DNA of 64,000 nt from Bacteroidota bacterium (GTDB taxonomy: Bacteria; Bacteroidota; Bacteroidia; Palsa-965), in assembly GCA_020402865.1 (NCBI GenBank), contig JADBYT010000001.1:124001-188000 (forward strand). The letters are read 5' to 3'. This document shows positions 6,311 to 23,242 of the stretch, piece after piece (positions within the stretch are counted from its first letter, which is position 1; each line of letters opens with the position of its first letter). Both the position numbers and the translations under genes were made by a program. The notes below the pieces were generated by a model, which saw only the letters and a list, made by a program, of their open reading frames with translations, ran no database searches and was not told where the DNA came from.

Positions 6311-7819
6311 TTATTGCTTCAACTCTATTCTGAATGTGGTTCCTTTGCCCGGCTCCGAGCGTTTTACGAAAATGCTGCCGCTGTGGTAGTTTTCGATAAT
6401 CCGTTTGCAGAGTGAAAGGCCGAGCCCCCAGCCGCGTTGTTTGGTGGTAAAGCCGGGCTCAAACACGGTTTTGTGTTTGGAGCGTGGAATGCCTTTGCCG
6501 CTGTCGGTAATATCAATGATTACTTTTTCGGGTACTTCCTGCACGGTTACCGTAATGCTGCCGCGCCCGTCCATAGCGTCAACCGCGTTGCGGCAAAGGT
6601 TTTCGATGACCCATGCAAAGAGCGGGATGTTGAGCGGGGCAATGATTCCGTTGCCAGTATCAACCGTGTATTCTACTGATTTCGGGGAGCGTGCGCGGAT
6701 ATAATCAACGGCCTGTTCGAGGGCGTCGGAAAGGTTTTCGGGTTTGAGTTTAGGTTGGGAACCGATTTTTGAAAAACGCTCGGTAATCATTTCAAGGCGT
6801 TTTACATCACGACCTATTTCAACGGTAATTTCCGGGTCGATGCCTTTGAGTTGCATGTATTCGAGCCACGCAATGAGTGATGAAAGCGGTGTACCGAGCT
6901 GATGTGCCGTTTCTTTCGCCATGCCCACCCAAACATGATTCTGTTCGGCGCGGCGTGAGGTACTGAACAGGAAATAGGCGGTAAGCAGGAAGATGCCGAT
7001 AACGGTAAACTGGATATAGGGGAAGTAGCGCAACTGTTTCAATTGAGGCGACTCCATATACCAGATATAGTTTTTCTTGTTGCCAAGATTCACATCAATA
7101 CGGTTGCCCTCCTTTTGCAGCACGGTAAGCATTTTTGCCAGATAGGCGGCTGAGTCTTTCGCCACCATTGCCGAGTCGAGGTTGCCGAAGGCAATAATTT
7201 GGCCGGAAGCCGAATCGGCATAAATGGCCGGGGCTGAAGCCGGGTTGGCGGCTACTTCTTTAATGAACGATCGTTCATTGTCTTCAAACGAAAGGCGTAT
7301 TTCGGTAAACACTTCCGAATCGCGGTAGTAGAGGTAGTGGTATTTTCCGGGGCCTACTTCCATTGGGATGGAATCATGCTGCCGCTGCATTTCGGCAAGT
7401 TCTTCGCGCAGGTAAAGGCTGTCTTTTTCACGCTTCTGATCGAGGTTGCGCGAGAGGAGAATTTTGCCGTTATCATCAGTGAGAATTACCGGTACGGTTT
7501 CATTGTCCACAATTACCGCAAACACAAAGCCAAGCGCCACATCATCGTCGGGCAGTTGGGGCAGCATTTTATTGGCTTCGGCCCAGAGCTGTACTTTTTT
7601 GCGTTCTTCGCGGGCAATTTTGGCATAGAGCTGGCTGGTGGCTTCCATCATAAGCGCCTTGCGGCGCACGGCTTCGGCCCAGAGTTCTACATTGCGCTTT
7701 TCGCTGTCGGCAATTTTGCGCACAAGCTGACTCGTGTACCAGAGTGATGCGGATACAATTGTGGCTGCCGCCAGCAGCAGCAGCCATTTCCATCGCTGTT
7801 TTTTCGAGTAGATGTTCAC
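6311..7819 (-). CDS. Membrane sensor histidine kinase
   Basis: A 502-residue kinase that starts at GTG. A membrane segment lies at about residues 12-28 and a second at about 272-291, with a 240-residue extracytoplasmic region between. The cytoplasmic part has the phosphoacceptor motif ETAHQLGTPLSSL, an N-box (NLCRNAVDAMDG), G1 (DSGKGIP) and G2 (GWGLGLSLCKRII). Close to the membrane two copies of a motif of the form QLxxKIAxxExxxVxLWAEA occur at residues 31-50 and 63-82. No response regulator gene adjoins it, so it is an orphan kinase here. The signal is unknown. Confidence 0.92.
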   Translation of the reverse strand: MNIYSKKQRWKWLLLLAAATIVSASLWYTSQLVRKIADSEKRNVELWAEAVRRKALMMEATSQLYAKIAREERKKVQLWAEANKMLPQLPDDDVALGFVFAVIVDNETVPVILTDDNGKILLSRNLDQKREKDSLYLREELAEMQRQHDSIPMEVGPGKYHYLYYRDSEVFTEIRLSFEDNERSFIKEVAANPASAPAIYADSASGQIIAFGNLDSAMVAKDSAAYLAKMLTVLQKEGNRIDVNLGNKKNYIWYMESPQLKQLRYFPYIQFTVIGIFLLTAYFLFSTSRRAEQNHVWVGMAKETAHQLGTPLSSLIAWLEYMQLKGIDPEITVEIGRDVKRLEMITERFSKIGSQPKLKPENLSDALEQAVDYIRARSPKSVEYTVDTGNGIIAPLNIPLFAWVIENLCRNAVDAMDGRGSITVTVQEVPEKVIIDITDSGKGIPRSKHKTVFEPGFTTKQRGWGLGLSLCKRIIENYHSGSIFVKRSEPGKGTTFRIELKQ

Positions 7820-8518
7820 AGTTTATCCTTGCACGGTTTTTCCGCATTTCAGGCTGCAATAAAGATAATCGCATTTGTGTGCTAAAAAAAGAGAATATAT
7901 GCAGATAATCCGATCCCAAACTTTGCGGCTTGGGGTGTCACCTGAAGGCCATATGGTGAAACAGGAGACTTTGGCTAAGGAGTTGAAGCAAATGATAACT
8001 TTCTGGCAACAAATTATACATTGATTCCATAATAAAATATAAATATGTGCGTACAAACGATTGTTGCTGGTTGTATGTTCAATTAATACAACATGCAACA
8101 TATTCATTCGCCTTCTGCAAGAATTGCTCAATTAGTTTGGGTGAAATTAAAACCGATTGATTGATATATACGTATATTATGGATTTATCTGATTTATATA
8201 TTTAATTATAACAAATCAAAAAAAGATGAATTATTAATAAAATAAGCCCACTTATCAATTAAAAGCGGCCATTTATTGATATTATCATGAATCACGGAAA
8301 ACAATGACATTATCTTCGCTTTGTGAGCAGGCAATCAAAGAAAGACTCTCCTGCATGCGGATGTAATCATTTGGTAACCAGTCAAAAAATAATCTTTACG
8401 GTGGATTAATTCCACAGTGATTATGCAGTAAATCCGGAATGCTGCAGGCTGGTTTCGTTTTGCTCATGGCGGAAGCCGAAAAGCCATAAGAGTAGGCATT
8501 TTGTTAATATTTCTAATC
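7820..8518. other. AT-rich gene-free leader region upstream of the peptide operon
   Basis: About 700 bases without a convincing gene, visibly richer in A and T than the flanking housekeeping genes. A 102-codon minus-strand frame (7823-8131) has low-quality composition and was rejected. A possible -7 element TATCTTCG lies at 8311-8318 and a short inverted repeat GTGGA-N5-TCCAC at 8401-8415. Either could contribute to control of the precursor gene at 8519, but both are weak signals. The kinase promoter presumably lies at the left end on the minus strand. Confidence 0.5.
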
Positions 8519-8665
8519 ATGAATCTGTTTAAGATTAAGCCGAGTGCTGTGAAAACAGTGCAGAATTCAGCCCCTGCACAAACACTTTCTATCGAAGCAA
8601 TGAAGAAAGTAATGGGTGGCGGTGCATACAACAGCCACTGTTGCGTGAAGAAAGCAATGAGTTAA
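8519..8665 (+). CDS. Double-glycine leader precursor peptide (putative bacteriocin or signal)
   Basis: A 48-codon gene, ATG at 8519 and TAA at 8663-8665. Residues 23-34 read LSIEAMKKVMGG, matching the LSxxExxxVxGG leader consensus recognised by C39 peptidases. Cleavage after Gly34 would release a 14-residue core, GAYNSHCCVKKAMS, with adjacent cysteines at 41-42, a lone Tyr and a Lys-Lys pair. The N-terminal 22 residues are basic and polar. A strong hairpin follows within 15 bases. Downstream genes encode a C39 peptidase-ABC exporter and a HlyD adaptor, the standard partners. The core resembles no bacteriocin class I know. Whether it is an antimicrobial, a signal or a modified RiPP is open; that it is a secreted GG peptide is well supported. 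Confidence 0.85.
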   Translation: MNLFKIKPSAVKTVQNSAPAQTLSIEAMKKVMGGGAYNSHCCVKKAMS

Positions 8666-8677
8666 TACTTTTTTCAG

Positions 8678-8707
8678 GAGAATCATACCGGTTTCGGTAT
8701 GATTCTC
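8678..8707 (+). terminator. Hairpin between precursor gene and rest of operon
   Basis: A perfect 13-base-pair stem, GAGAATCATACCG (8678-8690) against CGGTATGATTCTC (8695-8707), closes a GTTT loop 12 bases after the precursor stop codon. The tract that follows (TTCTTATTATTT) is T-rich but not a pure run. It could be a leaky terminator or a 3' stabiliser giving excess precursor transcript over the transport genes. Confidence 0.75.
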
Positions 8708-8807
8708 TTCTTATTATTTATCTAAACAATATAAATAAAACAATTGTATATCGGATAATATTATAATCAGATCGAAAAAATACTATTCATTAATTATATA
8801 TAATTAG

Positions 8808-11105
8808 ATGATACAGGTTATTAAAACAGCTGGAAACCAGTCGATAAACGAGTTAAGCGTTTTTTTTGATAAAAAAAGAGCTGTGCTTATTACACACCGT
8901 GCTGATTTCATTCAACCTCATCTTGTGTTTCGCGAAGTGATTCGCTTTTTTGTATCCGAATTAGGTAAAGTTCATGTAGAGACTTATTTAAGCAGGTATC
9001 GGTCGGTAATGAGTTTGCTTTATGGTGAACTTGCCGGACAAATGAACGAGGAAGAGGAGCGTGAAAACGATTTTTGTGCGGCCCGGTGTGATTCAAATTA
9101 CGCGCATAGCCCGATTGCAAAATCAGCACTGATTGAGTCTTGTGCCTCATTAATGATTGAATTCAATGCTCAGATTCCCTACAGAATAGTAGTGAGTGAC
9201 GTTTCAACGCTTGATGTGAACAGTGTGGATCTGCTTAAGCATTTATACCATCTTCACCGCGATGAATCTCCTGATTTACTGATTGCATATAATCCGATAT
9301 GGCCCGATGATGAATGGGATTATGAAAACGGGCTTTGTCATTTTTACGGGCACGATACCGTTACTGTGCTTCAGGCGTTTGTATATGCTTTTGAAGAAGC
9401 GGCTGATCAGCTTATTGATTTAAGAATGATGGCAGAAACAGCTGTCAGCCAGCCGGCAACCCAACACGATACATTATGCGAACCCGAACTCACGCCTGAA
9501 TACGAGGCTTTTGTAAGACTTTCGGCAAATGTGCCATTCTCCGCAGAAGAGGCTGAGCGTACTTATCAGGCAATAATCGGATGTTTCAGGCAGTACGACT
9601 TTTTCAATACGCTCTTTCTCGGGCTGCGTGCCCGTGAAAAAATATTCTCACAACTAACACACGCTCAGCGTGCCGAATTACTGCATGTGCTCGGACTTTC
9701 AGCACATATCCGCCATTTTTTTACGCAGGAAAACAGTCGTCTTGCCGATTTTCTTCACCAGATTTTCGTTGAAGCACTGCAATACGAAACCCGTTTGTTG
9801 CATCGTATTGCACTCTGCTACAGACTTGTTGTTACGTTTGGCAGACGGAAAAATGACATACAACGTGCTTACAGTTACTTAAGCATTGCCGATACCGAAT
9901 TGCCGGAATTGCTCAACGACAAGCTGAAAATTGCCCGTGCATGGTTACTAAACATTCATAGCTATCTGCTGATGAAAGAAAATAAGCTGGAAGAAGCAAT
10001 AGCGCGGCATGAAGAAGCAATAGGGTCAGTATTCGAGATTGATGTGGAGGCGGGTGAGGTGTATGTACGTGAGCTGGAATTTACAAAAGCCATTCTTGCC
10101 GAAAATCTGGCTACGCTTACAGCCATAAAAAAAGATTACACATCCATGCAGCATTGGCTCGAAATTGAAACGGCGTTTAGTGCGCGCTGGCCTTTTTTTC
10201 ACGCCTCTGCCAGAGCCGAATGGCAATCTTTATATTTCAGGCAGCATAAACTGAAACAAGCCAGACTGTATGCTGAGGAAGGATTGTTGCTGTGTAGCAA
10301 AAGTTTTAATTATGTGCTTGCTTATTACTTCAGAGTAAGCCTGGCCGAAATTACCAGCCGGATGGGTATGGCTCATGAAGCGGCTTCCCATTACGAAAAA
10401 AGCTATGTGTATTGCACGCAGATAGGCCATAGCTATCCCGAAATTTCTGCGCTGTATCTGCTTCATTCTGCGGTATCCATGCACCTGAGTGCAGGAAATT
10501 ATTCGCGTGCTGCATATTGGCTTGAGCAAATACAACGGCTTGAACTTACGCACACTCCTGCCCAGCGTATTGCGCTGCTTGTGTTAAATGCACAGCTGGC
10601 CGGAATACAAAAAGATACGGCCGGGGTGGATGCCTGTATGAATGAGGCAATTGAACTGGCCGTGAATGATGGCGGTTCGGATATTTTCTTTACTACACTG
10701 CTGGAGGCAGGTCGTATTTGCACACATGCAAAAAGAAATTCCGAAGCAGCTTCAGCCTTTACACAAGCAGCCGAACTGCTTACGCTCGAACTCAGCGGAT
10801 TACCCTTTAAGCCACCGGTGGCTGAGCTTGCGCTGCTCTATCTGGGGCTGGCCCAAACCGGCGATATTCCGCTTAACTATTTGCCCGATGCTGTTTCGAA
10901 CCTGGCTGCAGCATTACCCAATCACACGGCTTCGTGGAGTATTTTACCCGAACTGGTGGAAATACTTTCGAAGTTATCTCCTCATGATTTAGAAAAACTC
11001 ACCATGCGCTCGGCTTCGGCAATCAAAGAAATTCTTTCCGCTGCCGAACAACGGCAAGACTGCATAAGTCACCTCAATATTATCCATTCCTACATAAACC
11101 GCTAA
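8808..11105 (+). CDS. Degenerate NTPase-like/TPR protein 1 of the peptide operon
   Basis: A 765-residue protein without signal peptide or membrane segment. Residues 1-200 contain a segment YRIVVSDVSTLDVNSVDLLKHL (split here only for description) that looks like the Walker-B/sensor part of AAA/STAND ATPases ('DD...aD..Sl.lL..l'), but no P-loop (GxxxxGKS/T) precedes it. From about residue 330 to the end the protein is all helical with TPR-like pairs (for example KLEEAIARHEEAI, AGNYSRAAYWLEQIQRL). The next gene is a paralogue. Expected to be a cytoplasmic scaffold or receptor for the peptide or transporter. The enzyme or regulatory role is not known. Confidence 0.7.
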   Translation: MIQVIKTAGNQSINELSVFFDKKRAVLITHRADFIQPHLVFREVIRFFVSELGKVHVETYLSRYRSVMSLLYGELAGQMNEEEERENDFCAARCDSNYAHSPIAKSALIESCASLMIEFNAQIPYRIVVSDVSTLDVNSVDLLKHLYHLHRDESPDLLIAYNPIWPDDEWDYENGLCHFYGHDTVTVLQAFVYAFEEAADQLIDLRMMAETAVSQPATQHDTLCEPELTPEYEAFVRLSANVPFSAEEAERTYQAIIGCFRQYDFFNTLFLGLRAREKIFSQLTHAQRAELLHVLGLSAHIRHFFTQENSRLADFLHQIFVEALQYETRLLHRIALCYRLVVTFGRRKNDIQRAYSYLSIADTELPELLNDKLKIARAWLLNIHSYLLMKENKLEEAIARHEEAIGSVFEIDVEAGEVYVRELEFTKAILAENLATLTAIKKDYTSMQHWLEIETAFSARWPFFHASARAEWQSLYFRQHKLKQARLYAEEGLLLCSKSFNYVLAYYFRVSLAEITSRMGMAHEAASHYEKSYVYCTQIGHSYPEISALYLLHSAVSMHLSAGNYSRAAYWLEQIQRLELTHTPAQRIALLVLNAQLAGIQKDTAGVDACMNEAIELAVNDGGSDIFFTTLLEAGRICTHAKRNSEAASAFTQAAELLTLELSGLPFKPPVAELALLYLGLAQTGDIPLNYLPDAVSNLAAALPNHTASWSILPELVEILSKLSPHDLEKLTMRSASAIKEILSAAEQRQDCISHLNIIHSYINR

Positions 11106-11117
11106 AACATAATTCAA

Positions 11118-13364
11118 ATGATACAGGTTATTCAAGGCGCTCAGCATCAGATTAATTTCTTCCTGCATGAATTCATGCAGCGCGAGAGCAATGTGTTTGT
11201 AATGCATACCCATAAAGAATTCCCTTCCGGGTTTTATTGTATGCGCATGTTTACCGACTACCTGAAACAGCGTTTCGGGGAAGAAGAAGTGTTGCAACAA
11301 CTCCGTGCTGATGCGGCAATGAACGCATTTATTTATCCGGAAGCTGCATCGGAAATGAATGACCAGGATAAGAAAGCATTTTCCAGCTTTTCCGCCAGAT
11401 TTGAATCACGCTTAAATGTGCCGTATGGTTTGTTTGAGCGCCTTGCTGCGTTGCTCAGTAAGTTAATCGGGAGCAATACAATTAATCTGATTATTCCGGA
11501 TATCCGTATGGTTGATTCGGAAAGCCTTCGTGTAATTGAAAGTTATTATCGGATTTACAGCCCCTCGTCAATGAGCCTTTATCTGGGTTTTACTACCGAT
11601 GTGATCGACAAGGAAGATGTGAACGGAATTATCTGGGAGCGCTATCAGGGTGATGTGCAGTTTTTTGCGGGTGGTTTTCTGCAATACGAGAATGTACAGC
11701 ACATCAAGCTGACTGATGGCGAAACCACATCGGTAATTTGGAATACCTATGACGTGGTTACTGCGGAAGAAGCAATTTACAATCAACTGGTTTCAGCAAA
11801 GCACATCAGTGAATTGCCACTGAATGAAATACGCGCACAGCTTCATGAGTCGTATGCGCGGTTTTCGTTCCGGGCTGTGATGAAAACCGGTGTGGCATTA
11901 CTTGAAAGGCCTGATTTTACTGATAATGCCATACGTGCAGAAGTTCATGGACTTGTAGGTTCCGCGGCCAATTTCTATCAGTTTACCCATCATGCCAATC
12001 CGCCGTTTGATGATTATCTGATGTATCATCTTGAAGAGGCGTTGAAATACGAAACACGTGCCGATGTGCGCATGGCGCTGTTTTACCGGATTTGTTTTAC
12101 CTGTGCCGAACGTCGCAGCGATATGCCGGCTGCCGAAAAATGGATCAATCAGTTTGTAGAAGAAGTAAATACATCATCGTTATCCGACGTACAGCGAAAT
12201 TATCATCTTGCATGGGCCTATAACGTGCGCGGTCATGTATATGCACATACCGGGCGTTTTGAGGAGGTGGAGCGTGATGGCGAAATTGCATACCAGCTCC
12301 TTTTCGATGGAATCCGGAAAATGGAGGCTGAGGGAGAAACAACATACAATGTGTGGCTGACCGACTACAGGCTTTCAATTTTTAATCTCACTATTCATCA
12401 GGTGTACACCGGTGATGAGGAAAATGAGTATGCCTACAGCCGCAAGTGGCATAAACGTATGGATGAAATCATGTCATTTATGCCGCGCATTATGTTGTTT
12501 GACACTTTTCACTGGATTGATTATCACCGGAACAAATTTGATATCATTAATGCGCTCAAAAGTGCGGAAGAGGGAATACAAGATGCAATTGAGCTCAAGC
12601 ACGGACAGATTTATGTATATACGGTATGCGCGGCTGATTTCAATTTCCGTCTCGGCAATATTGAAAAGGCATTGGATTATTTCTCCCGTGCCGAAAAGCT
12701 CAGACCCGTTTACAATGACCTCTTTTACTTCCTCTCTACATCCTGGTTTAAAGCATGCTGTCTTGCAAAACTCGGCAGGTATGCGGAAGCAGAAGCGTTG
12801 TTTACAGATGAACTGAAAAATAATCCGGCACCTGATTACCGTATCGGACTCATTTCCCGCCTTGCTGTAATTGAAGCCGGAAAAGGTAACCGCAGCGAAT
12901 TTGAAGCATTGATCAATACGGCCATTGATGAAGCAGTTGATCTTGGCGAGTTGAATGTGCTTTTAAAAGTAGCACTCACCTCCTGCCAGTGTCTGCTTCA
13001 ACTTGGCGATAATCAAAATGGTCGTGAGGCACTCGAAAAGGTAAACGAGTTAATTCAAAATGCTGCACATGAAAACGAAACGTTGAGTAAAACAACTCTT
13101 CTCGAAACGGCTGTTTGCAACTTGATGCTCAACGGTTATCAGGAAAATCAGGTATTGGCTGCACTGGGCATTTTGAAAGAAGCTTTAAATGACATCGAAA
13201 GCTGGCAGTACCTTCCTGTTTTAAGCCGGTTTGTGGAGGAATTTGAAATGAATAAACATCATAGCAGTCACGAAAATGCTGTTGCGGAAGCCCTTGAGGT
13301 ATTCCATTTTTCTTTCGGCCAGCAGCGTGAAGCAATTTCCGAAATACATTCAACCCAGGTATAA
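11118..13364 (+). CDS. Degenerate NTPase-like/TPR protein 2 of the peptide operon
   Basis: A 748-residue paralogue of the preceding protein. It starts with the same MIQVI (the first 15 bases of both genes are identical), has a matching Walker-B-like segment (INLIIPDIRMVDSESLRVIE) near residue 125, again without a P-loop, and a shared core around 'EALKYETRADVRMALFYRI' that aligns with 'EALQYETRLLHRIALCYRL' in protein 1. TPR-like repeats occupy about 340-700 (for example GNIEKALDYFSRAEKL, GRYAEAEALF). No DNA-binding domain is visible. It begins 12 bases after protein 1 and ends 6 bases before the transporter, so it is cotranscribed. Confidence 0.7.
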   Translation: MIQVIQGAQHQINFFLHEFMQRESNVFVMHTHKEFPSGFYCMRMFTDYLKQRFGEEEVLQQLRADAAMNAFIYPEAASEMNDQDKKAFSSFSARFESRLNVPYGLFERLAALLSKLIGSNTINLIIPDIRMVDSESLRVIESYYRIYSPSSMSLYLGFTTDVIDKEDVNGIIWERYQGDVQFFAGGFLQYENVQHIKLTDGETTSVIWNTYDVVTAEEAIYNQLVSAKHISELPLNEIRAQLHESYARFSFRAVMKTGVALLERPDFTDNAIRAEVHGLVGSAANFYQFTHHANPPFDDYLMYHLEEALKYETRADVRMALFYRICFTCAERRSDMPAAEKWINQFVEEVNTSSLSDVQRNYHLAWAYNVRGHVYAHTGRFEEVERDGEIAYQLLFDGIRKMEAEGETTYNVWLTDYRLSIFNLTIHQVYTGDEENEYAYSRKWHKRMDEIMSFMPRIMLFDTFHWIDYHRNKFDIINALKSAEEGIQDAIELKHGQIYVYTVCAADFNFRLGNIEKALDYFSRAEKLRPVYNDLFYFLSTSWFKACCLAKLGRYAEAEALFTDELKNNPAPDYRIGLISRLAVIEAGKGNRSEFEALINTAIDEAVDLGELNVLLKVALTSCQCLLQLGDNQNGREALEKVNELIQNAAHENETLSKTTLLETAVCNLMLNGYQENQVLAALGILKEALNDIESWQYLPVLSRFVEEFEMNKHHSSHENAVAEALEVFHFSFGQQREAISEIHSTQV

Positions 13365-13370
13365 ACAGCT

Positions 13371-15560
13371 ATGCGCCGTTTTCCTTTTTTTCGTCAGTAC
13401 GATTCGATGGACTGTGGGCCCACTTGTCTGAAAATGATAAGTGCGGCCTACGGCAAAGACATCAGTTTACAGAAACTCAGAGAGCTTTCGTACCTCTCGC
13501 GCGAAGGCGTCTCGCTTGCGGGTTTGTATCAGGCTGCCGAAAAACTTGGTTTCAGGGCAATGGTGGTCAAACTGCGCACGATCAGTAATGACGATCAGTT
13601 TACATTGCAGCATGCTACGCTGCCCTGCATTGTTCATTGGGATCAGAAGCATTTTGTAGTGGTGTATAAAATTTCCCGCTCACATGTATGGATAGCCGAT
13701 CCGGGAGCAGGAAAAATGAAAATCACAATTGCCGATTTCAGTAAGTTTTTCGAAACCGATCAGGGCGAAGGAATAGCCGTTTTACTCGAACCTACAAACG
13801 AATTTTATGATGCTGAATTTGAAAAGGAACCCCGGCTGGGTCTGAAATATCTTTTTGGCTATTTCAGACCTTACCGGCGTTTTGTGCTGCAGTTGTTTAT
13901 CGGAATTTTTGCTTCGGTTATTCTACAGTTAATTTTCCCCTTTCTGACCCAGGCCATTGTTGATGTGGGCGTTTCTACCAACAACCTTAGTTTTATTGTC
14001 CTTATCCTTATTGCACAGCTTGTGCTTTTTGTATTTAGTGCATTAATCAATGTGATGCAGCGATGGATTATTTTACAAATCAATTCACGTATTTCCATAC
14101 AACTTGTATATGATTTTCTTTCCAAACTGATGAGACTGCCCTTCAGGGTTTTCGATAGTAAAAATACCGGCGATATTTTTCAGCGGATGGAGGATAATAA
14201 ACGGGTTGAAACCTTCCTGTCCGAGTCCTTCATTCCATTTATCATGGGTTCGATCAGTTTTGTGGTGTTTGGAATTGTATTGCTGTTTTACAGCCTGAAA
14301 ATATTTTTAATCTACCTTATCGGACTTACACTGTATGTATTCTGGATTACTTCCTTTATGAAAAAAAGGAAGTCAATTGATTACATACGTTTTCAGGAAG
14401 CCTCCTATAACCAAACTACGGTGCTGGAAATGCTTCGTGGAATGCCTGAAATTAAACTTCAGGGTAGTCAGGTAAAACGCCGTCAGCAATGGCTGGGCGT
14501 GCAGGCTCGTCTTTTCAGAGCAAAAATTCAATCGCTCATTCTTGTTAATTATCAGGATTTCGGCGGGCAGTTTATCAATCAGTTAAAAGATATTCTAATC
14601 ATCTTCGTGTGCGCAAGTGAAGTAATCTCAGGACGAATGTCGCTCGGTATGATGATTGCCGTACAATACATTATCGGCCAGCTGAATGTTCCGGTTATTC
14701 AGCTGGTCAATATTCTCAGGGAAGGACAGGATGCAGTGCTCAGTCTTACGCGTATGAATGAGTTGTACAGCATGAAAGCCGAAGAGGAAAGTTTTGGGAA
14801 TATTGACGGACTCATGCAAGACGATTCCACACTTGTACTTAAAGATGTGTCTTTCAGGTACAATGAATTGTCGGACATGGTGCTGAAAAATATTAATCTC
14901 GTTATACCGCAGGGTAAAACGGTAGCTATAGTGGGAGCCAGCGGAAGCGGAAAAACCACGTTGCTCAAATTGTTGCTCGGATATTACGAGCCTGTCAACG
15001 GGAGCATTAAAACGGGCGATTATGATTTTTCACTTATCGACAAAAATAAATGGCGCAAGCAATGTGGTGCAGTAATGCAGGATGGATTTATTTTTTCCGA
15101 TTCCATTGCCAATAACATTGCCGAAAGCTCTGATCAGGTTGATAAAGCTCGTTTGCTTAAAGCGGTGAAAGTAGCCAACATTCAAAATTTTGTCGAAAAA
15201 CTTCCGCTGGCGTACAATACACAAATCGGTCCGCAGGGCATTGGTTTAAGTCAGGGGCAGCAACAACGTCTGCTCATTGCACGGGCCGTGTACAAACAAC
15301 CCAAACTTTTTTTCTTTGATGAATCGACCAATGCGCTTGATGCCAATAATGAAAAAGTAATTATCAATAATCTGAACGAAGTAACGAAAGATTGCACGGT
15401 GATTATTGTGGCGCATCGGTTAAGTACGGTGAAAAATGCCGACAAAATAATTGTACTCGACGAAGGCCGCATTATTGAAGAAGGCACGCATACCGAACTG
15501 GTTGAACTTGGCGGGGCTTACCTTAACCTTATCAAAAATCAATTAGAACTGGGAAAATGA
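13371..15560 (+). CDS. Peptidase-containing ABC transporter (C39) for GG peptides
   Basis: A 729-residue exporter that removes the leader and pumps the core peptide across the inner membrane. The N-terminal C39 peptidase keeps Gln9, Cys15 (in MDCGPTC), His94 (QKHFVVVY) and Asp110 (IADPG), so it should be active. A transmembrane domain spans about 165-450. The nucleotide-binding domain shows Walker A GASGSGKT (about 522-529), signature LSQGQQQR, Walker B LFFFDE and the H-loop VAHRLS. It overlaps the HlyD-family gene by 4 bases (ATGA). Its substrate is most simply the precursor at 8519. It is of the type often found with Bacteroidota bacteriocin loci. Confidence 0.95.
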   Translation: MRRFPFFRQYDSMDCGPTCLKMISAAYGKDISLQKLRELSYLSREGVSLAGLYQAAEKLGFRAMVVKLRTISNDDQFTLQHATLPCIVHWDQKHFVVVYKISRSHVWIADPGAGKMKITIADFSKFFETDQGEGIAVLLEPTNEFYDAEFEKEPRLGLKYLFGYFRPYRRFVLQLFIGIFASVILQLIFPFLTQAIVDVGVSTNNLSFIVLILIAQLVLFVFSALINVMQRWIILQINSRISIQLVYDFLSKLMRLPFRVFDSKNTGDIFQRMEDNKRVETFLSESFIPFIMGSISFVVFGIVLLFYSLKIFLIYLIGLTLYVFWITSFMKKRKSIDYIRFQEASYNQTTVLEMLRGMPEIKLQGSQVKRRQQWLGVQARLFRAKIQSLILVNYQDFGGQFINQLKDILIIFVCASEVISGRMSLGMMIAVQYIIGQLNVPVIQLVNILREGQDAVLSLTRMNELYSMKAEEESFGNIDGLMQDDSTLVLKDVSFRYNELSDMVLKNINLVIPQGKTVAIVGASGSGKTTLLKLLLGYYEPVNGSIKTGDYDFSLIDKNKWRKQCGAVMQDGFIFSDSIANNIAESSDQVDKARLLKAVKVANIQNFVEKLPLAYNTQIGPQGIGLSQGQQQRLLIARAVYKQPKLFFFDESTNALDANNEKVIINNLNEVTKDCTVIIVAHRLSTVKNADKIIVLDEGRIIEEGTHTELVELGGAYLNLIKNQLELGK

Positions 15561-16861
15561 TAAATCAGGAAGAACTCACACAGGATCCCGATCAGATAAA
15601 ACTAACCGGCAGGCAGGCGGTAAACGAAGCCATCGGGCGTCCGCCTTCTTCGGTACTGACCTATGGACCCGCCATTATTTCATGTATGCTGATTATGTTG
15701 CTGTTGCTCTCGTGGTTTATTCAATATCCCGATATTATTTCAGCCAAGGCAGTGATCACCACACTTTCGCCGCCACAAAAAGAAATCGCACGCATTTCAG
15801 GTAAACTTGATTCTGTTTTTGTAACAGATAATCAGCTTGTGAGCCCGGGCACTCCGCTGGCGGTTATTGAAAACAGTGCCCGATATGCAGATGTGGCCAA
15901 ACTGAAATTACTTCTGAATAATTCAGGCCCTGATGATTTCCCTTTTGAGCAATGTGCCGGCCTTTCCCTCGGTGAAATTGGCGAAGACTACTCGAAGTTT
16001 GAAACTGCTTACATTCTGTTTCAATTAAACGACAGGTTGCAGCCATTTGATGCCGACAGTTACAGCGGCATGCAAAATAAGTATGAGCTCAGCAGCCGGG
16101 AAAGCACTTTGCTCAATCAGCTTTCACTGGCCGAAAAAGAAATGCAACTCAGAGAGCAGGATCTCGACAGGTACCGTACACTCCATAAACAAGGCGTTGT
16201 TCCGGCCGAAGAGCTGGAGCAAAAACAACTTGCGGCTATTGAGGCCGGACGTTCGCTCAAAGCAATAAACCTTGCGCTTTCACAACTTCGCGAAAATAAA
16301 AACATCAATAACCGGAACCTCCGTAATGCAGAATTCAATAAAACACGCGAAAACGTTCAGCTTCGGAACAGCCTGCAGCAAGCTCATTTTTTACTTAAAA
16401 AATCGCTGCGCGACTGGGAACTGAAATATTTGCTTCAGGCTGATATTCAGGGACGGGTTTCATTTATTAATTACTGGAGCAAAAATCAAAGTGTAATTGA
16501 AGGTGAACTAATATTTGCAATTATTCCCGATCAGAAAAGCGGTATTGTGGCAAGAGTGAGAACGCCTTCGCTGAAATCAGGTAAGGTAAAGGCCGGACAA
16601 ACGGTTAATCTTAAACTGGAAAGTTACCCCGGTAATGAATTCGGAATTCTAAAAGGACGGGTTACTTCTGTGTCTGTTGTGCCCGATAAAGAAGGATTTT
16701 ATCAGGTGAATGTTGATTTACCCTCGGGCCTCGTGACTACGTATCAGAAAGAAATTGTATTCCGGCAGGAAATGCGTGCCGATGCCGAAATTATTACAGA
16801 GGAGTTGCGACTGGTAGAACGATTTTTCTATCATTTTAAAAACCTCTGGTCGAATTCATAA
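15557..16861 (+). CDS. HlyD-family membrane fusion protein
   Basis: A 434-residue periplasmic adaptor for the preceding ABC exporter. A single membrane anchor lies at about residues 36-55 (ISCMLIMLLLLSWFI). It is followed by a lipoyl-like half (ISGKLDSVFVTDNQLVSPGTPLAVIE), a long coiled-coil hairpin (about 165-290, rich in Leu, Gln and Glu), the second lipoyl half and a beta-barrel part (VKAGQTVNLKLESYP). The start overlaps the stop of the transporter gene, indicating coupled translation. An outer-membrane TolC partner is expected from the family but none is encoded in this window. It is the last gene of the operon and converges on the MarC gene. Confidence 0.93.
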   Translation: MINQEELTQDPDQIKLTGRQAVNEAIGRPPSSVLTYGPAIISCMLIMLLLLSWFIQYPDIISAKAVITTLSPPQKEIARISGKLDSVFVTDNQLVSPGTPLAVIENSARYADVAKLKLLLNNSGPDDFPFEQCAGLSLGEIGEDYSKFETAYILFQLNDRLQPFDADSYSGMQNKYELSSRESTLLNQLSLAEKEMQLREQDLDRYRTLHKQGVVPAEELEQKQLAAIEAGRSLKAINLALSQLRENKNINNRNLRNAEFNKTRENVQLRNSLQQAHFLLKKSLRDWELKYLLQADIQGRVSFINYWSKNQSVIEGELIFAIIPDQKSGIVARVRTPSLKSGKVKAGQTVNLKLESYPGNEFGILKGRVTSVSVVPDKEGFYQVNVDLPSGLVTTYQKEIVFRQEMRADAEIITEELRLVERFFYHFKNLWSNS

Positions 16862-16913
16862 GAGCTGGTAAAGGATTGCGCCTCATCATGCCCGATGCTT
16901 TTTAGCAAACTTC

Positions 16914-18747: not shown

Positions 18748-20007
18748 ATGCGTTTACATTTCGTGTGTGCCCGAAAACCACTGCTCACAGCATTGCTGTT
18801 GCTTTGCGTGTGGCCTTTGTTTGCGCAGGGCGATATGCGTTTTTTCGGCACGGCTACCAAAGCCGGGCAGGCTTTGCCGGGTGCCAACGTGAGTGTATTC
18901 ATGGATGGACGCCCGCTCCTTAACCTTACTACCGGCCGTAACGGGAAGTTCAGATTTACGGTTGATCTCGGGCATCAGTATCGGATCGACTTTACCTCGC
19001 CGGGTTGTGTGCCGATGTATATGGTGATGGATTTGCGGGTGCCCCGCGACAAAGGCTGGATTTATCCCGACTACGTGTGCGAAATTCCGTTCTTCGTACC
19101 CAACGATCCGCGTGTACGCACGGAGCAGTTTGCGCAAAAACCATTTGCCAAAGTAATTTTTGATGGCAACAAAGGTTTTTACGACGATCCGAAATGGAAT
19201 TTTACATCCACGCTTTTTAAAAACCCCGAAGAAGAACGACAGAAGCAGCTGCAACGCGAAGCCGAAGAGCGCGCGCGTATTGAAGAGGAAGACCGCAAGC
19301 GTAAACTACTGCTGGAAGAAGAACAGCGCGTGCTTGCCGAAGAAGCCCGGCGCAAACAACAGGCAGCACAAACACCTGCTACGCCCACACCCACTGTGCT
19401 GCCAGCTCTGGCTGCTGAAACAGAGGCACAGCGGCTTGAGCGCGAACGAAAGGAAAAAGAACAGCAGCAGCAGGCTAACCAGCAGGTAAAAAAACAATAC
19501 GAAAACAACCTGCTTAAACTGGCCGCCGAAAGCGAAAGGCAGCAGAATGTGCAGAAGTTTGATAAAATGAAAGGAACTGCACGAGGCAATTCGGCCGTGC
19601 AGGCCTTGCGTGTGGAGTCGGAAGTTAAAGCACAGGCCGAATTTGTGCGCGAACAACAGCAGCAACAACAAAAACAACAGCAGGTAAACAAACAGGTGAA
19701 AGATGCGCAGGTGAAAAAACTGCAGGAAACCGCAGCCAAAGTGCAGCGCGATGCCAATGCAGCAAAGCTGCGGCCTGTAGTACAAATGGGGACTTTCCAC
19801 TACCAGCCGTCGCCAACTATTGTGGTGACTTTTGTAGATGATATTTTTTCGGATGTGAAAACCACGCTGGTAAGCTGGCCCGGAGGGAAAAAAGTAGAAT
19901 TCCGCGCGGTGATTTACTGGTGGGGAGCTACGTATTTTTACCGCGATGGTTTGGAAATAGATGAGAAAACCTACACCAATGAAATTACAAAGTACAGGCA
20001 GAGTTAG
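18748..20007 (+). CDS. Exported protein with carboxypeptidase-regulatory-like domain and long coiled coil
   Basis: A 419-residue protein. A signal peptide occupies about residues 1-28 (ending LFAQ). Residues 30-115 resemble a beta-sandwich of the CarboxypepD_reg type (GATxxG..LPGANVSVFMDG...TTGRNGKFRFTV). About 155-345 is a charged coiled coil full of Glu, Lys, Arg and Gln with a Pro/Thr break in the middle, including runs of glutamine. The last 70 residues form a separate beta-rich domain (PTIVVTFVDDIF). It overlaps the start of the next gene by 29 bases, so the two are probably translated together and may act as a periplasmic partner pair. Function unknown. Confidence 0.7.
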   Translation: MRLHFVCARKPLLTALLLLCVWPLFAQGDMRFFGTATKAGQALPGANVSVFMDGRPLLNLTTGRNGKFRFTVDLGHQYRIDFTSPGCVPMYMVMDLRVPRDKGWIYPDYVCEIPFFVPNDPRVRTEQFAQKPFAKVIFDGNKGFYDDPKWNFTSTLFKNPEEERQKQLQREAEERARIEEEDRKRKLLLEEEQRVLAEEARRKQQAAQTPATPTPTVLPALAAETEAQRLERERKEKEQQQQANQQVKKQYENNLLKLAAESERQQNVQKFDKMKGTARGNSAVQALRVESEVKAQAEFVREQQQQQQKQQQVNKQVKDAQVKKLQETAAKVQRDANAAKLRPVVQMGTFHYQPSPTIVVTFVDDIFSDVKTTLVSWPGGKKVEFRAVIYWWGATYFYRDGLEIDEKTYTNEITKYRQS

Positions 20008-23000
20008 TGTGTTGCTGCTGTGTGTATGCACTGCTTTTCTGCTCAGGGCGCAAACCTCGGGCTTTATTTCGTATGGCGTAGAGCAGGGACTGGCGCAGGC
20101 ACAGGTGCAAACCATGGTGCAGGATGCGGATGGAAATTTGTGGGTGGGCACACTGGCCGGACTGTCGAAATACAACGGGCAGTCGTTTACCAATTACACC
20201 CGCCGCGACGGGCTGGCTGAAGACTGGGTGACTGCCGCCTATAAAGACAAACGCGGCGATTTGTGGTTTGGCCACTGGGCCGGTGGCGTTACGCGGTATA
20301 ATGTAAACCGGAAGAAATTCGAGAGCATGAATCTCGAAGAATATACACGCTTTCATACCATAACCGCGATTACGGAAGATAAAAAAGGTTTTTTGTGGAT
20401 TGCCACCGAGGGTGCGGGAATTTACATTTACGATGTGGCCAAAAACCAGATGTATGCGCTGGATAAGAAAGACGGATTAGCCAGCGCCAATGTGTATGAT
20501 CTTTGTCTTGATGCCAATTCGAATATGTGGATTGCCACCGATCACGGCATTACCATTTGCGATACAAAAGCGGACATTACCTCGCCCGCAGCTTACACCG
20601 ATCTTAATGCCGGCCGTGGATTTGTGAGCGATTACATTACCTGTTTTGCCCTGCTCAACAACGGAAAGGAAATGTGGGTGGGCACGGCCGACAAAGGCGT
20701 GCTTGTGATGCAATTGCCGCCTACGTTTGTAGCCCGCAATGCGCCCACGCTGCTTACTACCATGCGCCGTTTCAGTACAGCCGACGGAATGGGAGCTGAT
20801 TTTGTGGAAGCCATTTGCGGCGACAATCTGGGTAATGTGTGGACCGGAACTGCCGGAGGAGGTGTGGCGCGAATAACTCCGGGTAACTCCAAAGCCCGTT
20901 TCTCGGCACTTGACAAAGCGGCCGTGCGCAACTACTCCACACGAAACGGATTGAGCTATTTCAATGTGCGTTGTCTTTTACAGGATCGTGAAGGGAGTGT
21001 GTGGATTGGTACCGATGTTGGCCTGAATCAGTATCGTGGCGAACGGTTTACCTTGTATGACCGGCAGGACGGACTGCCCAATGATATTGTGTGGGCCACC
21101 TGTACCGACAGGCTGGGCAATGTGTGGCTTGGAACAAATGCCGGACTGGTAAAAATGAGTTTTTACACGCTGCCTGATAATAACGATCAGCGGTTTACGC
21201 TGCGCACCTACACCACGGCCGACGGACTTGGCAGCGATGCCGTGCTTGCCTTGCACGAAGATGAAGCCGGTAATATCTGGGCAGGTACCAATGGCGGCGG
21301 AGTAAGTAAACTTGCCCCCGGCAGCGAAGCACTTGAAACCTACAGCATATCCGATTCCCTCACCGGAAATATGGTGTATGCAATCAGTTCCGACCGAAAT
21401 GGTGATATCTGGATTGGTACACGCAACGGCGCATCCCGTTTAACACCCAATACCAGAGCAGTACGCAATTTTACCACTGCCGACGGGCTGGGAGGCAACA
21501 ACGTGTATCGTATTTTCTGCGACAGCCGCGGACAATTGTGGTTCGGGTCGCTGGGTGGTTATCTTTCAGTATATAACGGCAGCACGTTTACCCGTTACGA
21601 TGAAAGCAACGGTATTGTGCATCGTTTTATTCTTTGCATTAGCGAAGACAATAACCACAACCTCTGGTTTGGTGCTTACGGCGGCGGATTGTATGCGTAT
21701 GACGGGCGCACATTCAGAAACTACACCCGCAAAAACGGACTTTCCACTGAATCGCCTTACGCTATTATTGCCGATAAGATGAACAACATCTGGATCGGAA
21801 ACAGCCGCGGACTTGATTGCCTTTCCTCGCGTGATACCACGTTTTCATACTACGGCCGCAACGAAGGTTTTCCGGGTACGGAAGTAAACCCGAATGCGGT
21901 GTGCATGGATCGTGATGGTAACCTTTGGTTTGGAACTGTGATGGGTGCGGTGCGGTTTAGTCCGAAGGAAAATTTCCGCAACACCATTGAGCCGGTCGTA
22001 TCTGTTTCCGGACTGCGCATTTTTATGCGCGATGCAGAATTTCCGGAAGAAAACCGGTTTGCCTATAATCAGAATTACCTCACCTTCATTTTCACCGGCA
22101 CCAGTTTAACCAGTCCCGACAAAGTGCGTTATCAGTATAAACTCGAAGGCTTTGATAACGACTGGTCGCCGGTGCCGACGCATGTAAATGAAGCTACGTA
22201 TTCCAATCTTCCGCCGGGCGAGTACACCTTTCTGGTGCGTGCCTGTAACAACGATGGCGTGTGGAACCGCGAGCCTGCGCGCTATAAATTCACCATTAAA
22301 CCACCCTTCTGGCAAACGGCTGTATTTTATGGCGGTATGATTTTGCTGGTGGGTTTTCTGATTTTCGGATTTGATCGTGTGCGCACACGCGGACTGAAGA
22401 AGCAGAAGGAGGCGCTCGAATCGCAAGTAAGCGAGCGTACACTTGAACTTGCGCTGCGTAACGATGAGCTTGCGCAGAAGAACAAAGAAATTACCGACAG
22501 TATCCGCTACGCCAAGCGCCTGCAGGATGCCATGCTTATTCCGGCCTGGCATCTGCGCCGCGATTTGCCTGATTCGTTTGTGATGTTTAAGCCCAAAGAC
22601 ATTGTGAGCGGCGATTTCTGGTTCTATCGCAAAAAGAATCAGCGCATACTTATGGCTGCGCTCGACTGCACCGGGCATGGTGTACCCGGCGCGTTTATGA
22701 GCATTATGGCCAACGATTTGCTGGAGCAGGTGGTAACAGGCAATGAGCACGAAACACCGGCGCAGCTGCTTGACCGCCTCAACATACTCATGGCGGATAA
22801 AATGCGTTATCAGACAGACGAACTTCACGTGCGTGAAGGGTTTGATATCGCATTGATTGCATACAATACCGATACGCGCGAGTTGCAATATGCCGGCTCG
22901 TACAATCCGCTGCTGCATTTCCGCAGCCGCCAGATGACCGAGCTGCAGCCCGATAAAATTTCGGTAGGAAGCTGGACGGCCGACAAACCGGAATACTTTA

Positions 23001-23242
23001 AACTGCAAACCCTGCAACTACAGGCCGGCGATACGTTTTACATTTTCTCCGACGGTTTCTCCGATCAGTTTGGCGGGCCGCAGGGAAAGAAGTTTAAAAC
23101 AAGCCAGTTCAAAGCACTGCTGCTTAGCGTGCAGGGCCTTGAAATGGCCGAACAGGAACGCACACTCAGCCGCACCATAGAAAGCTGGCGCGGCGAGCTG
23201 GAACAGGTTGATGATATGCTGGTGATTGGTGTGCGGGTTTAG
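19979..23242 (+). CDS. Propeller-sensor SpoIIE-type serine phosphatase
   Basis: 1087 residues from ATG 19979, chosen because it gives a clean signal peptide (ending LLRAQ); an upstream ATG at 19961 adds six residues. Residues about 25-680 carry repeated 'G.LWxGT.GGGV.r...' blades typical of two-component regulator propeller domains. About 690-770 is a Y_Y_Y domain (RYQYKLEGFDNDW). A membrane helix follows at about 780-800, then a coiled coil and a SpoIIE/PP2C phosphatase domain (KDIVSGDFWFY; DCTGHGVPGAFMS; FSDGFSDQFGG). Periplasmic sensing would control a cytoplasmic phosphatase acting on a phosphoserine target, probably an anti-sigma-antagonist type protein. That target is not in the window. 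Confidence 0.92.
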   Translation: MKLQSTGRVSVLLLCVCTAFLLRAQTSGFISYGVEQGLAQAQVQTMVQDADGNLWVGTLAGLSKYNGQSFTNYTRRDGLAEDWVTAAYKDKRGDLWFGHWAGGVTRYNVNRKKFESMNLEEYTRFHTITAITEDKKGFLWIATEGAGIYIYDVAKNQMYALDKKDGLASANVYDLCLDANSNMWIATDHGITICDTKADITSPAAYTDLNAGRGFVSDYITCFALLNNGKEMWVGTADKGVLVMQLPPTFVARNAPTLLTTMRRFSTADGMGADFVEAICGDNLGNVWTGTAGGGVARITPGNSKARFSALDKAAVRNYSTRNGLSYFNVRCLLQDREGSVWIGTDVGLNQYRGERFTLYDRQDGLPNDIVWATCTDRLGNVWLGTNAGLVKMSFYTLPDNNDQRFTLRTYTTADGLGSDAVLALHEDEAGNIWAGTNGGGVSKLAPGSEALETYSISDSLTGNMVYAISSDRNGDIWIGTRNGASRLTPNTRAVRNFTTADGLGGNNVYRIFCDSRGQLWFGSLGGYLSVYNGSTFTRYDESNGIVHRFILCISEDNNHNLWFGAYGGGLYAYDGRTFRNYTRKNGLSTESPYAIIADKMNNIWIGNSRGLDCLSSRDTTFSYYGRNEGFPGTEVNPNAVCMDRDGNLWFGTVMGAVRFSPKENFRNTIEPVVSVSGLRIFMRDAEFPEENRFAYNQNYLTFIFTGTSLTSPDKVRYQYKLEGFDNDWSPVPTHVNEATYSNLPPGEYTFLVRACNNDGVWNREPARYKFTIKPPFWQTAVFYGGMILLVGFLIFGFDRVRTRGLKKQKEALESQVSERTLELALRNDELAQKNKEITDSIRYAKRLQDAMLIPAWHLRRDLPDSFVMFKPKDIVSGDFWFYRKKNQRILMAALDCTGHGVPGAFMSIMANDLLEQVVTGNEHETPAQLLDRLNILMADKMRYQTDELHVREGFDIALIAYNTDTRELQYAGSYNPLLHFRSRQMTELQPDKISVGSWTADKPEYFKLQTLQLQAGDTFYIFSDGFSDQFGGPQGKKFKTSQFKALLLSVQGLEMAEQERTLSRTIESWRGELEQVDDMLVIGVRV

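Follow-up and report, generated by a model that had tools for sequence, protein, structure and literature searches.

A candidate secreted-peptide cassette in a Bacteroidota genome pairs a short double-glycine precursor and a C39 exporter with two orphan TPR-type proteins

A window of 64,000 nucleotides from a Bacteroidota bacterium (assembly GCA_020402865.1, contig JADBYT010000001.1, positions 124,001 to 188,000 of the forward strand) was analyzed for a five-gene cluster encoding a short precursor with a double-glycine (GG) leader, two large paralogous proteins of the tetratricopeptide repeat (TPR) type, a C39 peptidase-containing ABC exporter (PCAT) and a HlyD-family adaptor. All positions given below are those of the window. 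The reading we favour, to which we assign a probability of roughly 0.5, is that the cluster is an acquired secreted-peptide cassette whose two paralogues, here called A and B, bind or handle the precursor in the cytosol. As a prediction from sequence, a secreted short GG-leader peptide with a dedicated C39 exporter is well supported, because the exporter is the only one with a C39 domain found in the genome (4.89 Mb, 49 contigs), the precursor is unique and its leader is like those of related loci. The features are as follows.

8519 to 8665, + strand: GG-leader precursor gene, 48 aa; leader end LSIEAMKKVMGG, core GAYNSHCCVKKAMS; unique in its own genome
8676 to 8709, + strand: intrinsic-terminator hairpin, 15 bp stem, directly 3' of the precursor gene
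8808 to 11105, + strand: TPR-pair protein A (P0001), 765 aa; N-terminal ~240 aa degenerate AAA_16-like and without a P-loop, then helical repeats
11118 to 13364, + strand: TPR-pair protein B (P0002), 748 aa; paralogous to A, its TPRs above a Pfam cut-off
13371 to 15560, + strand: PCAT, 729 aa; sole C39 protein found in the genome
15557 to 16861, + strand: HlyD-family periplasmic adaptor, 434 aa, with a Pfam match
7820 to 16913, no strand: extent of the insertion, from the histidine kinase start codon to the marC stop codon, judged from synteny and lower G+C

The cluster lies in an insertion of about 9.1 kb between marC and a histidine kinase gene (6311-7819) that has an orthologue in most members of the family. 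Kinase and marC are adjacent in four relatives of two genera (L230, L232 and L233 of the same genus, L234 of another), where the order kinase, marC, homologue of the gene at 18748, homologue of the gene at 19961 is unbroken; these four represent the empty site. In a fifth relative, L235 (G003:C22, 4929-8633), the same junction holds another insertion, of two genes (301 and 837 aa), which makes the site a possible hot spot for insertions; in a further relative, L231, marC does not adjoin the kinase. The cassette genes have a G+C of 0.42-0.45 and a third-position G+C (GC3) of 0.42-0.45, against 0.48-0.52 and 0.50-0.58, respectively, in flanking genes up to 25 kb away. No suggestive repeats were seen inside either boundary region, the two ends not having been compared with each other. 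Acquisition of the whole cluster in one piece is the simplest interpretation, and since all five genes lie in one insertion and share the lower G+C they probably travelled together. On the far side of marC, and kept next to it in relatives, the window encodes a large sensor (19961-23242) with two-component-propeller repeats and with Y_Y_Y and SpoIIE phosphatase domains.

The precursor consists of MNLFKIKPSAVKTVQNSAPAQTLSIEAMKKVMGG followed by GAYNSHCCVKKAMS, the division marking a cut at the first GG, and its core contains two adjacent Cys. The GG leader is present, but the LSxxExxxVxGG form originally ascribed to it requires correction, as the leader end LSIEAMKKVMGG has its Glu at -9 rather than -8, one residue earlier. 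With three Gly in a row, the cut could fall at either of two adjacent positions, giving a core of 14 residues if it follows the first GG (Met then being at -7 and Val at -4) and of 13 otherwise. A stricter GG-motif pattern with E at -8 misses the precursor; the relaxed pattern matches it and is expected by chance in ATG open reading frames (ORFs) of 25-120 aa at only 0.0036 per kb, a rate taken from simulated sequence with the same dinucleotide make-up. The leader resembles leaders at related exporter loci, for example LSRAEMKKVMGG in L124. Searches of domain libraries gave no family match for the ORF, and in relatives the precursor gave two weak matches (E 0.58 and 0.76), which were rejected as noise.

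Directly 3' of the precursor stop lies a perfect 15-bp hairpin with a T-rich tail, the top-ranked terminator-like site of the region (8676-8709; -22.4 kcal/mol, z -6.2, with 0/200 shuffles as stable). Its position right after the stop supports a real small gene. All five genes lie in the same direction, and the four downstream ones are separated by 12 and 6 bases or overlap by 4, exactly as the original prediction gave them. The description of a compact operon applies to the four tightly spaced downstream genes, but the precursor is set apart from them by the terminator and by 142 bp before the next gene at 8808. This arrangement points to an at least partly separate transcript: instead of merely opening a single operon, the precursor gene probably has some expression of its own, independent of the four genes that follow.

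Both parts of the export machinery bore out the original prediction. The exporter matches Peptidase_C39 at 119 bits, with ABC_membrane and ABC_tran well above their Pfam cut-offs. Its C39 residues are complete (Q9 together with the triad C15, H94 and D110), and its Walker A, signature LSQGQ and Walker B motifs are intact. The adaptor matches HlyD_3 at 45.8 bits against a cut-off of 22.2. The best matches of the exporter are to Saprospiraceae loci (L131, L136; about 900 bits) and those of the adaptor to Flavobacteriaceae loci (L186, L196, L177; 367-389 bits), a difference which hints at a mixed ancestry of the export pair.

The two large proteins are distant paralogues (21% identity over 708 columns, E 3e-16). 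Both begin MIQVI and share an N-terminal domain of ~240 aa followed by helical repeats, which fill most of each protein. The earlier view of them as paralogous TPR proteins stands for the paralogy and for B, which passes the Pfam TPR cut-off (35.2 versus 27.8 bits), whereas A falls under it (best 17.1 versus 27 bits) and owes its TPR status to its paralogy to B and to predicted helices. Foldseek comparison indicated a C-terminal TPR solenoid, with matches to generic TPR solenoids only; a match to Rap-CSF (rank 50, rmsd 12.6) was disregarded. For the N-terminal ~240 aa no relevant Pfam match was obtained. This domain contains the motif hydrophobic strand-D-x4-D-x2-S (IVVSDVSTLDVNS in P0001, LIIPDIRMVDSES in P0002), which resembles the Walker-B segment of AAA_16/STAND (signal transduction ATPases with numerous domains) proteins. 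When a profile of the two N-terminal domains was compared by HHalign with 13 AAA_16 domains collected in this analysis, a weak match was found (70 columns, score 32.5, pairwise P 6e-4, probability 28%) which covers exactly the Walker-B segment and the following sensor strand; the controls reached at most 20.8 in 150 column shuffles and 12.9 with the reversed profile. No P-loop GxxxxGK[ST] was found in A or B by motif scan, and domain library searches of both gave no helix-turn-helix (HTH), kinase or other output domain; no catalytic motif and no metal or cofactor signature was seen in the pair. AlphaFold2 (AF2) models built from two-sequence input were poor (pLDDT 47 and 56), too poor for the N-terminal domain, but in the low-confidence model of B the order of strands 26-28, 122-126, 152-158 and 180-184 fits a P-loop-NTPase core. 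Tentatively, these sequence features suggest that the pair are degenerate STAND-type TPR proteins which lost nucleotide binding; for proteins of this sort, scaffolding or sensing is a more plausible role than catalysis.

No full-length homologue of A or B was detected in any collection searched. The samples comprised 12 genomes of the family and order, the host belonging to a small order, and two overlapping sets of 395 and 366 genomes of the class, which includes Saprospiraceae, Flavobacteriaceae and Bacteroidales relatives. B gave no orthologue in the family and order genomes and only short TPR matches in the class genomes, where the N-terminal domain profile gave nothing credible; the profile of the full pair returned short TPR matches only in the other class sample. 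The family that supplied the closest exporter among those sampled gave no orthologue with the full profile, and none came from plasmids or IMG/VR, nor from the genome contig collection with patterns of A, although such contig scans detect close relatives only and fast evolution could hide distant ones. The two paralogues easily detect each other in the same genome searches. A sequence search of the PDB gave no meaningful match and PHROGs none, and the PADLOC matches were only ABC-ATPase cross-hits of the exporter. The order of genes that the original prediction proposed looking for in other Bacteroidota was likewise absent from the 12, 395 and 366 genomes, from the best 80 exporter loci of a GTDB-wide scan, from IMG/VR and from plasmids. 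Nor did any related locus turn up in which a larger exporter substrate, or the lack of the short ORF, could have counted against that prediction; the four relatives with adjacent kinase and marC have the empty site. We know of no described class with this gene set, and none was found, but a class of its own is not established by a single instance. At present this is one acquired cassette with two orphan proteins, and not yet a class.

The exporter itself belongs to a group widespread in Bacteroidota (75/395 class genomes, mostly at 45-55% identity); among the best 80 loci of the GTDB-wide exporter-profile scan none exceeded 56% identity, and the nearest were mainly from Saprospiraceae/Chitinophagales. 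Of about 125 exporter loci surveyed (124 of them with the exporter intact), none contained a relative of A or B at E<=0.01. TPR proteins near other exporters were of different kinds (TPR-CHAT, secreted and lipoprotein TPR) with no significant similarity to the pair. Where the exporter's immediate upstream neighbour is close and co-directional (69 loci), it is often a maturase, with matches to the grasp-with-SPASM model in 12 loci, to thiopeptide-type/LanB-C in 8 and to VKOR/thioredoxin in 6. A LanB-like gene lies 30 bp upstream of the exporter in the same-family genome of L036, and in L092, which has the closest exporter of the class sample, HlyD is followed by genes of 406 and 1037 aa, the sizes of LanC and LanB. 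Candidate GG precursors were present at only 39/124 loci by the relaxed pattern. The exporter group thus often serves ordinary loci for ribosomally synthesized and post-translationally modified peptides (RiPPs), of the grasp-with-SPASM, LanB and thioredoxin/VKOR types. In the cassette, as originally predicted, domain library searches found no known maturation enzyme: there was no match to a LanB dehydratase (Lant_dehydr) or LanC within the cassette, the rest of the genome not having been searched for such enzymes, and none to an ATP-grasp ligase or SPASM maturase. No recognisable immunity gene and no peptide importer were found among its genes.

Several of these loci showed features of their own. 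L040 (G009:C15, 3229-11850), from the same family, has an unusual, RiPP-like set: a GG precursor whose core is only 8 residues long (...ASIVGG followed by ALAACHPA), then genes for a methyltransferase-PqqD fusion, a hydrolase of the metallo-beta-lactamase fold, an aldo/keto-reductase-like protein, PCAT and HlyD. Related GG precursors lie beside PCATs in L104 (8358-12567), L108 (1735-5942) and L094 (7947-8114), with proline-rich cores ending DIWIPVVL/DIWIPIPL; L104 and L108 also carry a 1101-aa TPR protein on the strand opposite the PCAT, in L104 with a CHAT (caspase-like) domain. In L041 (G011:C60, 9897-13456) a stand-alone 141-aa C39 ORF without an ABC part overlaps a 1045-aa ORF.

C39 exporters cut their substrates after GG and export the core, and HlyD adaptors join the exporter to a TolC channel. 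In the model we favour, the cassette would have been acquired horizontally and would make and export a very short peptide. The precursor would be made in excess from its own terminated transcript, and A and B would form a cytosolic pair that binds it and holds it or delivers it to the exporter. By family knowledge, the C39 domain would cut after the double glycine, and exporter, adaptor and a presumed TolC-type outer-membrane channel encoded elsewhere would release a peptide of ~14 residues, either GAYNSHCCVKKAMS or a processed form, for example with Cys-Cys oxidised. The originally predicted 14-residue secreted peptide system is thereby retained as regards leader and dedicated exporter, with a core of 14 or 13 residues and export argued by family analogy. 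We prefer handling of the precursor to a receptor function because the genes of the pair stand in the place usually taken by those of RiPP maturases, because neither an output domain nor an importer was found, and because two diverged subunits suggest a heteromer; the preference is by a small margin. Several points weigh against it. No homologous locus links the pair to the peptide, the links being co-operonic position and the shared island only; precursor and operon may be uncoupled by the terminator between them; and both the AF2 models and the AAA_16 match are of low confidence. Peptide binding by the pair is putative.

The TPR superhelix is the peptide-binding fold of RRNPP receptors, and a 14-residue core is of suitable size for a signal. 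The peptide could accordingly be a pheromone and the pair its intracellular sensors, RRNPP- or MalT-like, relaying by protein-protein contact and not by DNA binding. We regard this as a possible but doubtful alternative. AAA_16/STAND-TPR proteins are mostly signal transducers, and the N-terminal domain resembles AAA_16. Propeptide-plus-receptor pairs are described in PMC10075063, and a regulatory role was suggested for TPR genes in two Bacteroidales RiPP clusters (PMC10352776). The absence of an output domain from both proteins, of the P-loop and of an importer in the cassette speaks against sensing, and it would be unusual for a single peptide to have two receptors that differ so much.

That the pair is a new kind of RiPP maturase, modifying core residues (Ser, Cys, His or Tyr) ahead of export, appears unlikely. 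Its genes stand where related exporter loci have their maturases, modifiable residues abound in the core, and RiPP clusters with annotation-invisible maturases exist, such as that of cacaoidin (PMC8068269); but most of both proteins is helical repeat, no catalytic, metal or cofactor signature was found, and there is no P-loop for ATP-driven chemistry. A more speculative form of this idea, in which a P-loop-less AAA_16/TPR heteromer acting as enzyme or conformational machine adds a previously unseen modification to a GG-leader peptide, we consider rather improbable; if true, it would found a new RiPP class. Still more doubtful is a role of the pair in self-protection or in control of transporter activity with no part in making the peptide. 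Such a role would account for a cassette in which no other immunity gene was recognisable, but large soluble TPR proteins are to our knowledge not a known immunity type, and bacteroidetocin producers appear to do without immunity proteins (PMC6671954). Least probable is a spurious ORF with an exporter serving a substrate encoded elsewhere: the ORF is short and without a database family, but the low chance rate of its leader, the terminator right after its stop and its closeness to the sole C39 exporter detected in this genome all argue against this.

A Bacteroidota exporter module that is paired with many maturation systems has here its slot filled by two orphan, apparently degenerate STAND-TPR proteins, which suggests that secreted peptides may be handled, sensed or modified in a manner not yet described. 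The cassette is a singleton, so conservation gives no test, but as one 9-kb piece of five genes it is directly testable by transfer to a laboratory strain.

With respect to known systems, RRNPP pairs also have a short secreted peptide encoded beside TPR proteins, but they use Sec export rather than a GG leader and PCAT, and have an N-terminal HTH or a Rap-type 3-helix bundle; A and B gave no HTH match, are about twice the usual size and have an AAA_16-like N-terminus. AAA_16/STAND ATPase-TPR transducers share the order of a Walker-B/sensor-like segment followed by a TPR superhelix, although the similarity is weak and the pair has neither P-loop nor effector domain. Bacteroidota class I lanthipeptide and grasp-with-SPASM loci have PCATs about 45-56% identical to the present one, usually followed by HlyD, but contain the LanB/LanC, ATP-grasp and SPASM/radical SAM genes which the cassette lacks. 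Bacteroidetocins (PMC6671954) are alike in Bacteroidota host, GG leader, C39 exporter, Cys-containing peptide and lack of an evident immunity gene, and show that GG peptides of Bacteroidota can be active without recognisable immunity genes. Bacteroidetocins A and B, however, have 42-aa cores with four Cys, a five-transmembrane protein and a thiol oxidoreductase, compared with a 14-aa core with two Cys and neither protein among the five genes here. There is also a parallel with C39 PCAT/double-glycine systems in general (such as LahT, colicin V and bacteroidetocins), with which the cassette shares the GG leader, the fused C39-ABC exporter with a full active site, HlyD and a short precursor nearby, and from which it differs in a core of only ~14 aa and in carrying two orphan paralogues of ~750 aa in place of the usual maturase or immunity genes.

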